From: Treponema sp.
Lineage (GTDB): Bacteria; Spirochaetota; Spirochaetia; Treponematales; Treponemataceae
Assembly (NCBI GenBank): GCA_017421145.1
Contig: JAFOTA010000127.1
Span: forward strand, 1 to 6,521
DNA length: 6,521 nucleotides
Reading direction: 5' to 3'
Part shown: positions 1 through 6,521 of the stretch, one piece after another
Layout: every line of letters starts with the position of its first letter
How positions within the stretch are numbered: position 1 is the first letter of the stretch
Made by a program: the position numbers and the translations under genes
The notes under the pieces: model-generated
The model's database searches: none
What the model saw: only the letters and a program-made list of their open reading frames with translations
Told to the model about the DNA's origin: nothing

Positions 1-342
1 ATAATTCACGCCGTCGCAGGCGCAGACGATGGCGTCCACGGGCTTGTGGAGGACGATGCGCCGCATGTCCTGGCAGACGAAGGGCAGGAACCGGAGCCCT
101 GCGTTGAGGGCCTTCTGCCGGGCCGCCATGAGCATATCTTCGGACAGGTCCGAGCCGGTCATGGCATACCCCATCTTCGCCAGGCGCACCGTGAGGTTCC
201 CCGTGCCGCAGGCGCATTCCAGGACGGATCTGGCCCCTGCTTCCTTCAGAAAGCCGTCGATATACCGGGCCCAGCCGTCATACTTCACGTCGCCCATCAT
301 GCGGTCGTAGCCCGCGGCAAAGGCGCTGTACGCTTCGTTCAT
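1..342 (-). CDS. Class I SAM-dependent methyltransferase, N-terminal 114 residues (runs off left edge)
   Basis: This is a probable small-molecule or tRNA/protein methyltransferase of the Rossmann-fold class I type; the substrate cannot be told. The visible part begins MNEAYSAFAAGYDRMMGD, the YxxFAxxYDxLM-type opening common in Firmicute enzymes of the YqeM-like/Methyltransf_25 group. SAM-binding motif I is VLECACGTGNL (residues 40-50). The acidic residue after strand 2 is Asp65 in TGSDLSEDML, a second conserved Asp is at 92 (CQDMRRI), and the strand-4 motif DAIVCACDG lies at 103-111. The family is usually about 240-250 residues, so about half is missing past the edge. The ATG overlaps the whiA stop codon in an ATGA, so translation is probably coupled. 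A GGAG lies 11 bases upstream, inside whiA. The fold is secure; the function is not. Confidence 0.88.
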   Translation of the reverse strand, partial: MNEAYSAFAAGYDRMMGDVKYDGWARYIDGFLKEAGARSVLECACGTGNLTVRLAKMGYAMTGSDLSEDMLMAARQKALNAGLRFLPFVCQDMRRIVLHKPVDAIVCACDGVNY

Positions 343-1274: not shown

Positions 1275-1955
1275 TTAATGCATCATCCTGCTTTCGATGT
1301 CCGCCGCCTCCGCGGTGAGATCCCGGTGATAGACCCGGACGGGGATGCCGTCCTCCCGCAGGCGCTGCGCCACGGTTTCCGCCGCGTAAACGGACCGATG
1401 CCGGCCGCCGGTGCAGCCAAAGCAAAGCCGCAGTAGATTTTTGCCCTGAAGCTCAAAGTAGGGCATGGTGTCCTTCACCAGCTTCACCGCCCAGTTCAGC
1501 ACGTCGTCCATGAGGGGCTTGTCCTCCAGGAAGCTCTTGACCGGCTGATCGAGGCCGGAGAGCTTGCGAAGCTCCGGCACGTAGTAGGGATTCTCCGCAA
1601 AGCGCATATCCAGCACGATGTCCGCATCCACGGGCACGCCGCGCTTGTATCCGAAGCTGCAGATGACCAGGCTCATATGGGGGCTGCCGATCTCCGGCAG
1701 GATCTTCCGCATCATTTTGGGCACGTTCCTGACCGCCACGTCGGAGGTGTCCAGCACATAGTCCGCATGGGCCAGCATGTTTCCCAAAAATACCCGCTCC
1801 AGGCGCACGCCGGAGGCCACATCGCCCCCCTCGCCCAGGGGATGCCGCCGACGGGTCTCGTTATAGCGCTCCATGAGCACCTCGTCCCGGGCGTCCAGAA
1901 AAAGGATCTCATACCGGCAGGTCAGCTTCATAAGCACGTCCACCGCGTCCTCCGA
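1275..1955 (-). CDS. rapZ: RapZ/YvcJ nucleotide-binding protein, truncated at its N-terminus by the sequence junction
   Basis: RapZ family proteins bind nucleotides. In E. coli RapZ binds small RNAs that control glucosamine-6-phosphate synthase; in Bacillus, YvcJ is a GTPase linked to competence. About 222 residues remain of a usual 285-295. Visible motifs are YEILFLDARDEVLMERYNETRRRHPL, VLDTSD, SFGYKRGVPVDADIVLDMRF, and the C-terminal signature FGCTGGRHRSV followed by YHRDL. The N-terminal 75-80 residues, including the GMSGAGKS-type Walker A loop, are absent: the frame reads back through ASEDAVDVLMKL to a TGA at 1962-1964. The GTG at 1941-1943 could be taken for a start, but it is an internal Val codon with no ribosome binding site. 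The stop codon is immediately adjacent to whiA. The truncation is probably an assembly artefact, not a real pseudogene, because the remaining frame is intact and well conserved. Confidence 0.93.
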   Translation of the reverse strand, partial: SEDAVDVLMKLTCRYEILFLDARDEVLMERYNETRRRHPLGEGGDVASGVRLERVFLGNMLAHADYVLDTSDVAVRNVPKMMRKILPEIGSPHMSLVICSFGYKRGVPVDADIVLDMRFAENPYYVPELRKLSGLDQPVKSFLEDKPLMDDVLNWAVKLVKDTMPYFELQGKNLLRLCFGCTGGRHRSVYAAETVAQRLREDGIPVRVYHRDLTAEAADIESRMMH

Positions 1956-1961
1956 AGCTGA
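1944..1961. other. Probable chimeric junction between two genomes
   Basis: The leftward rapZ frame makes sense up to about here and hits a stop at 1962-1964. The rightward binding-protein frame makes sense from about 1951. Base composition moves abruptly from GC-rich to AT-rich, and coding direction flips. The exact breakpoint is ambiguous because the bases around tccgaagct fit both genes, which could reflect a short stretch of microhomology. No IS ends, target duplication, integrase or tRNA is present. An assembly or amplification chimera is inferred; a true recombination is possible but less likely. Confidence 0.85.
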
Positions 1962-2286
1962 TCAGAAAGCAACCGCTGATTTTATCTACTGGCTGTATTC
2001 ATCAGCAACTGGAAAAGATTATGTAACAAACAAGTTGGGATTCATCGCTCCGTTTGATACATTCTCAGACAACGAAAGACCGACAGATCCACTTGCTGTA
2101 GAAATCAACAACTGGATGTCAAAACCTGGAATCACATCTGTTGCTTGGAACTTCACATTGTTCCCTTCACAGACATTCAAGGACAACTTTGGTGCATCTT
2201 TGCTCCGCTACGCTCAGGGTTCAAAAGATTGGTCAGAAGTTAAGACCAGTGTTGTTGAAGATTGGGCCAGCGAAAGTGAAATGTAA
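1951..2286 (+). CDS. Sugar ABC transporter substrate-binding protein, C-terminal 111 residues only
   Basis: This is the end of an extracytoplasmic solute-binding protein of the CUT1 (MalE-like, family 1) type, which captures an oligosaccharide and delivers it to the permeases encoded just downstream. The visible part begins SEADQKATADFIYWLYSS, matching the family's C-lobe pattern (SEEDQKATLDFINW...). It continues with a GFIAPFDTFSD segment at 30-40, VAWNFTLFPSQTFKDNFG at 64-81, and the usual ending LLRYAQGSKDWSEVKTSVVEDWA. Two stop codons follow in tandem (TAATAA). The signal peptide, lipobox and roughly the first 300 residues are missing because the sequence to the left belongs to another genome. 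The same frame is open further left to about 1873, but that part is antisense to rapZ and is not protein. Family assignment is based on pattern and operon context; the ligand is inferred to be a maltodextrin-like sugar only from the neighbouring malQ. Confidence 0.87.
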   Translation, partial: SEADQKATADFIYWLYSSATGKDYVTNKLGFIAPFDTFSDNERPTDPLAVEINNWMSKPGITSVAWNFTLFPSQTFKDNFGASLLRYAQGSKDWSEVKTSVVEDWASESEM

Positions 2287-2321
2287 TAAATCCTAAAAGC
2301 GATTTACAACAAATCTTTTGG

Positions 2322-2353
2322 GGAGGGTTTTTCCTGTTGAACCCTCCTTTTTT
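2322..2353 (+). terminator. Rho-independent terminator after the binding-protein gene
   Basis: A perfect 8-bp stem, GGAGGGTT (2322-2329) with AACCCTCC (2340-2347), has a 10-base loop and is followed directly by six T residues (2348-2353). It starts 35 bases after the binding-protein stop codon and lies upstream of the permease genes. In binding-protein-dependent sugar operons, such an intercistronic hairpin typically lets the binding protein be made in excess over the membrane parts, by partial termination or by protecting the mRNA 3' end. A weaker AT-rich hairpin (GATTT 2301-2305 with AAATC 2311-2315, extended by AAAA/TTTT across a 2-base bulge) lies just before it. Confidence 0.85.
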
Positions 2354-2354
2354 C

Positions 2355-2373
2355 AAGGGTGCTACAAACCCTT
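2355..2373 (+). promoter_or_regulatory. Second hairpin between terminator and permease ribosome binding site
   Basis: AAGGGT (2355-2360) and ACCCTT (2368-2373) form a 6-bp stem with a 7-base loop. It ends two bases before the GGAGG that serves the first permease gene. Its arms also complement the arms of the preceding terminator: ACCCT at 2341-2345 can pair with AGGGT at 2356-2360, and AGGGTTT at 2324-2330 with AAACCCT at 2366-2372. Alternative folds are therefore possible. The pairing is seen in the sequence; any regulatory role is inference. Confidence 0.45.
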
Positions 2374-2375
2374 AT

Positions 2376-2380
2376 GGAGG
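2376..2380 (+). promoter_or_regulatory. Ribosome binding site that fixes the start of the first permease
   Basis: GGAGG lies 5 bases before the ATG at 2386. This decides against the in-frame GTG at 2359, which sits inside the second hairpin, and against the in-frame ATG at 2374, which overlaps the ribosome binding site itself. Confidence 0.8.
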
Positions 2381-2385
2381 AAACT

Positions 2386-3249
2386 ATGAAAAAGGAAAAT
2401 AATCCACTCAAAAAATATTTTCCAATTTTTGTCTTGCCTACATTAGTCTGCTTTGTCCTATTTTTTCTGATACCTTTTATTATAGGCATTGTATTATCGT
2501 TTACAAACTTTACGACTGTAACTGATATCAAAGGGTTTGTAGGTTTTCAAAATTATATAAAGGCATTTACAACCGACAAAGAATTTTTACACGCTTTAGG
2601 ATTTACATCTCTGTTCACTTTGGTTTCGATTGTTACTGTAAATATTTTTGCATTTGTTCTTGCGCTGCTTCTTACGAAGGGACTCAAAGGAACTAATTTT
2701 TTCAGATCGATTTTCTTTATGCCGAATCTGATTGGCGGAATCGTTTTGGGATATATTTGGAATCTTTTGATTAACGGACTCCTTCTGAAATATTTTGGTG
2801 AAGATATTTCGTTCAAAACGGAGTACGGATTTTGGGGACTTGTGGTTTTGACAAACTGGCAGCTGATTGGCTACATGATGGTAATCTATATCGCGGGTTT
2901 ACAAAATATTCCTGACGATGTGTTGGAGGCCGCACAGATTGATGGAGCGTCTTCACTTACAATTCTTTTCAAAATCAAGATACCAATGGTCATGCCTTCA
3001 ATCACAATCTGCATGTTCCTAACTTTGTCAAACTCATTCAAAATGTTCGACCAGAATCTTGCGTTGACAGCTGGTGCTCCAGAAAAGAGTACTGAAATGC
3101 TTGCTCTGAATATTTATCAGACTTTCTATAATAGAAATGCAAACTGGCATGGTGTGGCTCAGGCTAAGGCAACCATTTTCTTTATCATCGTTGCGGTGAT
3201 TGCTTTCCTGCAGTTGAAACTTACTAACAGAAAGGAGATTGAATCATGA
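2386..3249 (+). CDS. CUT1 sugar ABC transporter permease, MalF/UgpA-like
   Basis: This inner-membrane permease subunit pairs with the next gene product to form the sugar channel. The 287-residue protein begins MKKENNPLKKYFPIFVLPTL, a short basic N-terminus then the first membrane helix (about 13-40). Further hydrophobic segments lie at about 72-98, 106-130, 148-172, 203-222 and 262-279, giving the six helices usual for this family. The cytoplasmic EAA loop that docks the ATPase is EAAQIDGASS...FKIKIP at 181-200. The length is typical of the short MalF-like proteins of Gram-positive bacteria and spirochaetes, which lack the large periplasmic loop of enteric MalF. The stop codon overlaps the next start in an ATGA. 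The substrate is inferred from context to be a maltodextrin or related oligosaccharide; other CUT1 substrates are possible. Confidence 0.94.
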   Translation: MKKENNPLKKYFPIFVLPTLVCFVLFFLIPFIIGIVLSFTNFTTVTDIKGFVGFQNYIKAFTTDKEFLHALGFTSLFTLVSIVTVNIFAFVLALLLTKGLKGTNFFRSIFFMPNLIGGIVLGYIWNLLINGLLLKYFGEDISFKTEYGFWGLVVLTNWQLIGYMMVIYIAGLQNIPDDVLEAAQIDGASSLTILFKIKIPMVMPSITICMFLTLSNSFKMFDQNLALTAGAPEKSTEMLALNIYQTFYNRNANWHGVAQAKATIFFIIVAVIAFLQLKLTNRKEIES

Positions 3250-4088
3250 CAAATAAAAATAATAAAATAGGTTCACAGTTTATCTACGCAGTTCTGGTTG
3301 TTTTGACGGCAATATTTATCTTCCCGATTATTTTGGTCCTGATGAATTCCTTCAAATCAAGGTTGTATGTTTCAACAGTTCCATTTGCTTTACCAAGTGG
3401 AAATATGTTTGTTGGTCTGGAAAATTATATCAACGGTCTTACAACGTCCGGATTTTTTATGGCATTTTTGAGATCCGTTTGGGTGAGCATTGCCTCCGTT
3501 GCTTTGATTATTGTGGGAACTTCCATGACGGCTTGGTTTATCGTCCGTGTTAAAACAAAACTTACAAAAGCACTGTACTACGTTTTTGTCTTCAGCATGA
3601 TTGTTCCGTTCCAGATGGTGATGTACACGATGACATTTATGGTAACAAGTCTTGCTTTCGATAATGTAGTAGGAATTGTTCTTGTATATCTTGGATTTGG
3701 AGCTGGACTTTCAGTTTTCATGTTTACCGGTTTTGTAAAAAGTGTTCCGCTGGAAATTGAGGAAGCTGCGACAATCGATGGATGCAATCCGCTGCAAACA
3801 TTTTTTATCGTCGTGTTCCCAATGCTCAAGCCGACTGCCATAACAGTTGCAATCCTGAATGCCATGTGGGTTTGGAATGACTATCTTTTGCCTTACCTGA
3901 TTTTGGGTTCCGATCACAAGACAGTTCCTGTTGCAATTCAGCTGGCAATGCAGGGAGCTTACGGTTCTACCGATTACGGTGGATTTATGGCGATGCTTGT
4001 TGTTTCAATTATTCCTATAATTATCTTTTATGTATGTTCACAAAAGTATATTATAAGGGGTGTAATTGCAGGAGCAGTAAAGGGGTAG
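3246..4088 (+). CDS. CUT1 sugar ABC transporter permease, MalG/UgpE-like
   Basis: This is the second permease of the heterodimeric membrane channel. The 280-residue protein has a first helix at about 12-34 (FIYAVLVVLTAIFIFPIILV). Its MalG-type features are the MNSFKS segment at 33-38, the central PFQMVMYTMTFMV region at 121-133, the EAA loop EEAATIDGC...FFIVVFP at 172-192, and the MWVWNDYLLPYL segment at 207-218. The ending RGVIAGAVKG is typical of MalG-type subunits, whose tail contacts the ATPase. AAAGGAG lies 8 bases before the ATG, and the start overlaps the preceding stop by four bases, indicating coupled translation and equal dosage. Only one base separates its stop codon from the regulator gene downstream. 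Confidence 0.94.
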   Translation: MTNKNNKIGSQFIYAVLVVLTAIFIFPIILVLMNSFKSRLYVSTVPFALPSGNMFVGLENYINGLTTSGFFMAFLRSVWVSIASVALIIVGTSMTAWFIVRVKTKLTKALYYVFVFSMIVPFQMVMYTMTFMVTSLAFDNVVGIVLVYLGFGAGLSVFMFTGFVKSVPLEIEEAATIDGCNPLQTFFIVVFPMLKPTAITVAILNAMWVWNDYLLPYLILGSDHKTVPVAIQLAMQGAYGSTDYGGFMAMLVVSIIPIIIFYVCSQKYIIRGVIAGAVKG

Positions 4089-4089
4089 T

Positions 4090-5103
4090 ATGACTATTAA
4101 AGACATTGCGAAAGAGTGTGGATGTGCGGTTGGAACTGTTTCAAGAGTTTTAAACAATCATCCTGATGTTAGTGACAAGACTAGAGAAGAAGTTATGGCA
4201 GTTGTTGAAAAACATGGATTTGTTCAAAACGCAAATGCAAAGCAGCTAAAAACGCAGGAGAGAAAAAATCTTGCCATAATTGTAAAGGGGACTTCCAGCA
4301 CTCTTTTGAATGGTCTTTTGGAACGCATCCAAAGAAAACTTGAGTCTTCGATTTATTCAGCGAATGTTATCATCCTTGATGAAAATGATAACGAAGGCTT
4401 AAATGCGACAAGGATTTATTTTTCACTAAAACCTTTGGGAATCATTTTTCTTGGAGGTAGTCCGGACAAGCTGAGTGGAGATTTTGAAAAGGTACACGTT
4501 CCAAGCGTTTTGATTTCCAATAATGCTGATTCACTTAAAAGCAAATATCTTTCAAGTGTAAGTTCAGACAATATGAAAGCGGCATACAGTTCCGCAAAAT
4601 ATTTGATAAAAAATGGACACAAAAAGATTGGTGTAATTGGTGGCGCAATGGATTCGGAACTCTCCTGTATCCGTTACGAAGGTTTTATAAAAGCAATGAA
4701 ATCTGCAAAATTGGATTTTGATTTTGAAAAATCTTATGCGGTTTCGAAATATTCTTTCGAAGGTGGATTCAATGCCGCCGAAGAACTTTTAAAAAAAGAT
4801 CCATCGATTACTGCAATCTTTACGATGTCTGATGCAATGGCGATTGGTGCAATCAGGAAACTTACTGACATGGGGAAAAAAATTCCGGAAGATATTTCCA
4901 TCATAGGATTTGATGGAATTTCTTTGGTTGATTTTATCTGTCCGCGTCTTGCAACAATTCGTCAGATGGAAGAACAGTTGGCCGACGAAGGACTTTCGCT
5001 TTTGTTGGACAACATTGAAAATAAAACAGCACCGTCGCACAAAATGATTCCATTTGAATTTGTTGACGGAGAAAGTGTAAAGGACATTTCTAAGAAAACA
5101 TGA
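4090..5103 (+). CDS. LacI/GalR-family transcriptional regulator of the sugar operon
   Basis: This is a DNA-binding repressor-type protein with a sugar-sensing domain. The 337 residues have the family layout: N-terminal HTH at 2-24 (TIKDIAKECGCAVGTVSRVLNN), hinge at about 45-56 (VQNANAKQLKTQ), then a periplasmic-binding-protein-like core. Core signatures include SVSSDN at 156-161, HKKIGVIGG at 177-185, the effector-contact Arg195 in IRYEGF, FTMSDAMAIGAI at 244-255, and ISIIGFDG followed by PRLATIRQ. AGGGG precedes the ATG by 4 bases, and the gene begins one base after the upstream permease stop. It is therefore part of the transport operon and probably controls it and itself. Next to malQ a MalR-like role in maltodextrin response is likely, but this is inference. 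The usual YxPN before the hinge reads FVQN here. The operator is not visible and probably lies upstream of the missing start of the binding-protein gene. Confidence 0.93.
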   Translation: MTIKDIAKECGCAVGTVSRVLNNHPDVSDKTREEVMAVVEKHGFVQNANAKQLKTQERKNLAIIVKGTSSTLLNGLLERIQRKLESSIYSANVIILDENDNEGLNATRIYFSLKPLGIIFLGGSPDKLSGDFEKVHVPSVLISNNADSLKSKYLSSVSSDNMKAAYSSAKYLIKNGHKKIGVIGGAMDSELSCIRYEGFIKAMKSAKLDFDFEKSYAVSKYSFEGGFNAAEELLKKDPSITAIFTMSDAMAIGAIRKLTDMGKKIPEDISIIGFDGISLVDFICPRLATIRQMEEQLADEGLSLLLDNIENKTAPSHKMIPFEFVDGESVKDISKKT

Positions 5104-5125
5104 TTTTTTAGTTATGCCCGAAAAT

Positions 5126-5129
5126 AAGG
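5126..5129 (+). promoter_or_regulatory. malQ: Ribosome binding site that decides the malQ start
   Basis: AAGG lies 8 bases before the ATG at 5138. A second in-frame ATG at 5114 would add eight residues (MPENKVEH) but has only T-rich sequence upstream with no Shine-Dalgarno match. The conserved part of the protein begins right after the later ATG. Confidence 0.6.
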
Positions 5130-5137
5130 TTGAACAT

Positions 5138-6521
5138 ATGAGTTTGCTTGATAAACGTGCTAACGGTGTTTTAATGCACATATCATCTTTGCCGGGAAAA
5201 ACAGGGATTGGGACACTTGGTTCCAGTGCCTATGCTTTTGTTGATTTTTTGAAAAATAGTTCACAGACTTATTGGCAGATTTTACCAATCGGGCCGACAA
5301 GTTTTGGTGATTCACCATATCAAAGTTTTTCGACCTTTGCAGGTAATCCATATTTTATTGATTTAGAATTTCTGGAACATGATGGCCTGATTTCAAAAGA
5401 AGATTGGGAAAATGTTAACTGGGGAAACGATTCTACTTCTGTTGATTATGGAGTGCTTTACAAAGAACGACATGCCTTGTTCGCGAAAGTCCAAAAAAAT
5501 TTTGAAAAAAATATTCCATCAGAATATTACGACTTCTGCAATTATAATTCTGCTTGGCTTGAAGATTACTCGCTTTTTATGGCAATCAAGGATGCGCACG
5601 GAGGATGTTCATTCGATTGCTGGGAAGATGATATCAGAAAAAGAGAAGGGGATGCTGTAAAGTTTTGGTATGAAAAATGTTTGAATCGTGTTTCATATTA
5701 CAAAATGCTGCAGTTCCTTTTTTACAAACAATGGTACGCATTAAAAAAATATGCGAACGAACGTGGAATAAAAATCATAGGTGACATTCCAATTTATGTT
5801 GCGGCTGACAGTGCGGATGTTTGGTCAAATCCAAAACAGTTTTATCTGGATGCTGATTCAAAACCTATTGAGGTTGCCGGCTGTCCTCCTGATGGATTTT
5901 CTGCTGATGGTCAACTTTGGGGTAACCCAGTTTACAATTGGGACTACATGAAAAATAATGGATATTCTTGGTGGAAAAAGCGTCTGGATATGAGTCTGAA
6001 AAATTATGATGTACTTCGCATCGACCATTTCCGCGGATTTGATTCCTACTATTGTATTCCGTTTGGTTCTTCTGATGCGAAAAATGGATTTTGGCGGCAG
6101 GGACCTGGAGCGGACCTTTTTTCTGAAATCAAAAAAACTTTTGGAGAACTTCCAATCATTGCGGAGGACCTGGGATTCCTTACTGACTCTGTTTATAAAA
6201 TGCTTGATGAAGTTGGATTTCCTGGCATGAAAGTTTTGCAGTTTGCATTTGATTCCAGGGAAACAAATAGTGGATATCTTCCGCATTGCTACAAAAAAAA
6301 TTCTGTAGTTTATACGGGAACCCATGACAATGATACTATCCGCGGATGGATGAGCGCGATTTCAAAAGATGATTTGGAATTTGCAAAAGCATATCTTCGC
6401 GCGGATGAAAATAACTTAGCGGTGAACATGATGTTGACTGCGATGGCAACGGTTTCAAACACCTGTGTGCTTACCATGCAGGATTTGATTGGACTGGATG
6501 GAAGGGCAAGAATGAATCAAC
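5138..6521 (+). CDS. malQ: 4-alpha-glucanotransferase (amylomaltase), GH77, truncated by right edge
   Basis: MalQ moves alpha-1,4-glucan segments between maltodextrins in the cytoplasm, releasing glucose and building longer chains for phosphorylase. The visible 461 residues are uninterrupted. They show the GH77 opening GVLMHISSLPGKTGIGTLG (11-29), WQILPIGPTSFGDSPYQS (47-64), FAGNPYFIDL, and GDIPIYVAADSADVW. The catalytic nucleophile is Asp296 in LRIDHFRGF, the acid/base is Glu343 in IAEDLG, and the third carboxylate is Asp397 in TGTHDNDT. These positions closely match the family. The sequence stops in GLDGRARMNQ, just before the PSTxxGNWxWR-type C-terminus, so about 35-45 residues are missing from a usual length of about 500. 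The gene starts 34 bases after the regulator with no terminator between, so it belongs to the same operon. It links imported sugar to alpha-glucan metabolism. Confidence 0.96.
   Translation, partial: MSLLDKRANGVLMHISSLPGKTGIGTLGSSAYAFVDFLKNSSQTYWQILPIGPTSFGDSPYQSFSTFAGNPYFIDLEFLEHDGLISKEDWENVNWGNDSTSVDYGVLYKERHALFAKVQKNFEKNIPSEYYDFCNYNSAWLEDYSLFMAIKDAHGGCSFDCWEDDIRKREGDAVKFWYEKCLNRVSYYKMLQFLFYKQWYALKKYANERGIKIIGDIPIYVAADSADVWSNPKQFYLDADSKPIEVAGCPPDGFSADGQLWGNPVYNWDYMKNNGYSWWKKRLDMSLKNYDVLRIDHFRGFDSYYCIPFGSSDAKNGFWRQGPGADLFSEIKKTFGELPIIAEDLGFLTDSVYKMLDEVGFPGMKVLQFAFDSRETNSGYLPHCYKKNSVVYTGTHDNDTIRGWMSAISKDDLEFAKAYLRADENNLAVNMMLTAMATVSNTCVLTMQDLIGLDGRARMNQ

Follow-up and report, generated by a model that had tools for sequence, protein, structure and literature searches.

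Chimeric contigs that mix several genomes are a known problem of metagenome assembly, as noted in passages of one published account (PMC7299287). The contig stretch analyzed here (6,521 bases, below called the window) appears to be an entire contig, as the longest contig listed for its own permease, P0121, measures 6,521 bases. It resembles such inter-genome chimeras in its single abrupt switch of genome, in sides that continue elsewhere without the join, and in a flip of both composition and strand. It differs from them in the near absence of contiguous overlap at the join, which speaks for a chimeric read or insert and against a shared repeat.

Two gene arrangements serve as the references for the window. 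The rapZ-whiA cluster of Clostridia, as found in locus L128 of genome G979, consists of a complete rapZ (294 amino acids), then whiA, then a complete methyltransferase gene, and the frame preceding rapZ in this locus presumably resembles murB; the window's copy differs in that rapZ lacks its first 69 codons, an absence due to the join only. The other arrangement is a Treponema sugar ABC transporter operon, which we take to be of the CUT1 type, with a binding protein, two permeases, a LacI regulator, and a 4-alpha-glucanotransferase in identical order in loci L001 and L002. Here the window differs in that the binding-protein gene lacks its first 335 codons, again because of the join only. All parental sequences come from draft assemblies, L001 and L002 being metagenome-assembled genomes (MAGs).

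Composition and Gene Content of the Window

A sliding profile and a direct count gave a G+C content of 62.9% for positions 1-1953 and of 38.3% for positions 1954-6521. The annotated genes to the left of the join (methyltransferase, whiA, and rapZ) all lie on the minus strand, and those to the right (the end of the binding-protein gene, two permeases, the LacI regulator, and 4-alpha-glucanotransferase) all lie on the plus strand. Both the abrupt change in base composition and the flip in coding direction that the first-pass annotation had described were thereby confirmed. The features of the window are as follows.

1 to 342, minus strand: class I SAM-dependent methyltransferase of the Clostridia part, its 3' end lost at the edge of the contig; Pfam Methyltransf_25, E 6.4e-14; intact in L128 with 245 amino acids
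339 to 1274, minus strand: whiA, intact (Clostridia part); TIGR00647, 229.9 bits (cut-off 44.1)
1275 to 1954, minus strand: 3' part of rapZ, truncated at the join so that residues 70-294 of 294 remain; the RapZ C-terminal domain is present together with part of the N-terminal one; intact in L128 at 3592-4476
1953 to 1955, no strand: chimeric junction in our reading, with G1954 common to both parents; base-by-base comparison with G979/L128 and L002
1954 to 2286, plus strand: 3' part of the sugar-binding protein gene, truncated at the join so that residues 336-445 of 445 remain; whole in both L001 and L002, with SBP_bac_8 there
2386 to 3249, plus strand: sugar ABC transporter permease of the MalF/UgpA type, in the Treponema part; BPD_transp_1; nearest loci are the Treponema MAGs L001 and L002
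3246 to 4088, plus strand: sugar ABC transporter permease, MalG/UgpE type; BPD_transp_1
4090 to 5103, plus strand: LacI-family regulator; LacI and Peripla_BP_3
5138 to 6521, plus strand: 4-alpha-glucanotransferase, its 3' end lost at the edge of the contig; Glyco_hydro_77, E 9.3e-168; longer frames of 503 and 505 amino acids in L002 and L001, respectively

The Left Part and Its Clostridia Parent

Positions 1-1953 aligned without gaps to one contig (contig 37) of the Clostridia genome G979, with 5 mismatches in 1,953 bases (99.74% identity). The RapZ fragment of the window was 100% identical over 222 amino acids to two full-length proteins of 294 amino acids from other contigs (P0001 and P0002). 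Missing from the window are residues 1-69, among them GMSGAGKST, presumably the Walker A motif of RapZ, in line with the earlier statement that RapZ has lost its Walker A domain. The divergence is abrupt: these relatives read SAGPEDAV at the point where the window reads SASEDAV behind a stop.

RapZ was continuous across the break point (residue 70) in 12 of 12 genomes of the Clostridia genus. Out of 15 loci from that genus, 14 entered this count, the 31-base match L123 being left out, and 12 of them span the break; of the remaining two, L119 holds the end of RapZ only and L122 holds no RapZ, and both of these genomes span the break in another locus. The hunt for the left parent took in the 22 genomes behind the loci, a Clostridia class sample (391 genomes), and one order (394 genomes), which yielded only short matches to the left part, in 4, 20, and 44 genomes, respectively. 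A protein search of that class sample came back empty at a cut-off of 1e-90, a threshold too stringent for the outcome to carry weight. Two of 200 genomes from another order carried a RapZ 88% identical to P0001, and it was their genus (12 genomes) that contained the parent, G979.

The Right Part and Its Treponema Parent

Positions 1954-6521 aligned without gaps to one contig of the Treponema MAG L002, with 11 mismatches in 4,568 bases (99.76% identity), and to the Treponema MAG L001, likewise without gaps, with 27 mismatches in 4,568. When counted from 1951 to 6521, the mismatches rise to 12 in 4,571 for L002 and to 28 for L001, position 1953 being the extra mismatch. Both MAGs carry a whole binding-protein gene upstream of the matching permease, regulator, and glucanotransferase genes. 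In L002 its product has 445 amino acids, counted from a chosen ATG, and only residues 336-445 of it are present in the window. The first-pass annotation had the binding protein losing its signal peptide and N-lobe; the N-terminal part is indeed gone, but the loss exceeds the N-lobe.

Among 80 loci of relatives, 74 had a match to the binding protein and 73 spanned the break point, the exception being L078, in which the gene is cut by the contig end. Six loci had no binding-protein match, and in five of these the permease match starts at most 134 bases from the start of the locus. The sixth, L019, has about 1.4 kb ahead of the permease yet no binding-protein match, unlike nearly all other loci.

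In a tree of the first permease with 81 rows (the window and the 80 loci), the window adjoins L001 and L002. One branch, with support of 99/92, parts 48 Spirochaetota rows from 31 Bacillota rows, 2 rows belonging to neither group, and the window stands on the Spirochaetota side together with its two neighbors. On the strength of this grouping, a cross-phylum transfer of the operon was rejected.

Six other loci (L036, L038, L040, L046, L051, and L055), whose MAG labels are Oscillospiraceae, Ruminococcaceae, Clostridia, or Bacillota, carry a permease with 70-75% identity to that of Treponema, along with a related binding protein. Because a single tree branch sets these permeases apart from those of Spirochaetota, their sequences are compatible with a possible old transfer or with shared ancestry.

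The Join, Base by Base

Comparison of the window with both parents placed the join at 1953/1954 or 1954/1955, inside the interval 1944-1961 in which it had been reported. At the join, the Clostridia parent is identical to the window until 1954 and the Treponema parent from 1954 onward, G1954 being the sole base at which the two parental identities meet contiguously. The earlier observation that two genes are cut at the same few bases also holds, as the rapZ and binding-protein fragments are both cut at the join. Past the join, over 1955-2099, the window and the Clostridia parent are 21% identical in an ungapped comparison; a G979 match to 1904-2003 reaches 1971 at 91%, but base-by-base identity ends at 1954.

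The contiguous overlap between the parents is thus 1 base; when 200,000 joins between L128 and L001 were drawn at random, 41% had an overlap of at least 1 base. The two parents have the same base at 1951, 1952, 1954, and 1958-1960, and within a 10-base stretch that crosses the join they match at 6 positions at best, a value reached by 5.5% of 100,000 random joins. The 12-kb parental stretches L128 and L001 have no exact 14-mer in common on either strand. The bases tccgaagct (1951-1959) had been described as compatible with both genes, which is true in part: the Treponema parent matches 8 of the 9 (not 1953), the Clostridia parent only 6 of 9 (not 1955-1957), and both together 5 of 9. The short microhomology proposed as a possible cause of the join was not supported as a contiguous match, which amounts to 1 base, and the interrupted similarity of 6 in 10 that turns up in 5.5% of random joins is a weak hint at most.

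Pfam searches of the 8 main frames found no mobile gene, no repeat was located at the join among the 20 of 26 direct-repeat families and 21 inverted pairs listed, and the window had no Rfam match and no tRNA. A mobile element, a repeat, a tRNA, or a known structured RNA at the join was rejected on these grounds. The earlier remark that neither a mobile element nor a repeat nor a recombination signature is present is therefore upheld as far as these tests extend, and within the same scope the hallmarks of horizontal transfer or mobile insertion (integrase, transposase, target duplication, repeats, and tRNA) were not found at the join.

Searches for Either Part or the Join in Other Sequences

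Neither part was found in the genome of the other: positions 1-1953 had no match in the Treponema genomes G001 and G002, and positions 1954-6521 had none in the Clostridia genome G979. None of the 15 genomes tested gave a match across the whole of 1904-2003, and the exact 34-mer at the junction was absent from viral_contigs. Weak matches to the right part (64-81% identity over at most about 400 bases) did occur in six of the Clostridia genus's 12 genomes; these are probably other permeases of the same kind.

In the protein collection, 114 relatives were found for the frame that crosses the junction (1873-2286). No alignment among them reaches the first six residues, and many begin at residue 7-25 with the binding protein's own sequence. 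The first 26 residues, the Clostridial head, share at most one 4-residue word with any relative, and the three relatives with such a word (3 of 114) each have a different one, which we read as chance. A clear antisense-rapZ head was seen in none of the 114 relatives in a search that also missed the window's own cross-junction frame, which makes this result a weak one; neither the best 120 protein matches nor the 114 relatives include the frames that the window itself has at the join, and other copies of the join could therefore be missed too.

Four relatives of the binding-protein end (P0354, P0315, P0344, and P0346) have other sequence beside it, with break points that differ from the window's, and for P0354 aminoacyl-tRNA synthetase domains are listed. 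These look like pieces of other chimeric or frame-shifted contigs.

Origin of the Join

The left and right parts of the window match separate genomes. Taxonomic assignment of the two sides, run separately as the first-pass annotation had advised, gave Clostridia (G979) for the left and Treponema (L002) for the right, and the accompanying search for sequences that continue each gene recovered RapZ (294 amino acids) and the binding protein (445 amino acids) whole in the parents. Each side is thus nearly identical to a different organism (99.74% to G979, 99.76% to L002), and each continues undisturbed beyond the break in the genome it comes from, with rapZ and the binding-protein gene intact. Taken together, these results leave us with little doubt that the contig is a chimera, in which 1,953 bases of a high-G+C Clostridia genome on the left and 4,568 bases of Treponema on the right were joined almost blunt; the first-pass proposal that two unrelated genomes meet inside rapZ and a sugar-binding protein gene has accordingly gained its parents, at about 99.75% identity.

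We infer both a metagenome origin for the contig and the manner in which its parts were joined. The seed would most likely have been a single chimeric read or insert, or a few of them, formed through ligation or template switching during library preparation, which the assembler would then have extended on both sides. A chimeric read or insert is likelier as the seed than an ordinary k-mer overlap, because the parental sequence in common at the join, with no exact 14-mer between L128 and L001, is too little for the latter. For the same reason it is improbable that the chimera was helped by short similarity near tccgaagct, whether through template switching or assembler overlap: the six positions at which the parents agree, and a 6-in-10 stretch, slightly above what a random join usually shows and reached by 5.5% of them, favor this route, but the contiguous overlap is a single base, and de Bruijn assemblers require an overlap of about 20 or more, against which no common 14-mer exists.

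Real recombination, in which an illegitimate event placed 4.6 kb or more of Treponema DNA inside a Clostridia rapZ, or the reverse, appears very unlikely. Illegitimate recombination can also give near-blunt joins, and related binding-protein and permease operons are present in both phyla; yet the permease tree parts Spirochaetota from Bacillota and keeps the window with L001 and L002, the join occurs in 0 of the 15 genomes tested, the 8 main frames contain no mobile gene, none of the listed repeats lies at the join, and no tRNA is present. Furthermore, as both parts are about 99.75% identical to separate genomes, such an event would have to be very recent. Its most specific form, in which the Treponema sugar-transport operon entered the rapZ gene of a gut Clostridia bacterium in vivo through a very recent near-blunt insertion that removed the ATP-binding part, we regard as scarcely credible.

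With the contig read as a chimera of pieces from two unrelated gut bacteria joined during sequencing or assembly, the broken rapZ and binding-protein genes are most likely an artefact, both genes being intact in real genomes, and the artefact is most likely of an already known kind. Its value is that of a warning only: such contigs can produce false truncated genes and false cross-phylum transfers, and the window is to be split at 1954 ahead of any annotation or taxonomic use.
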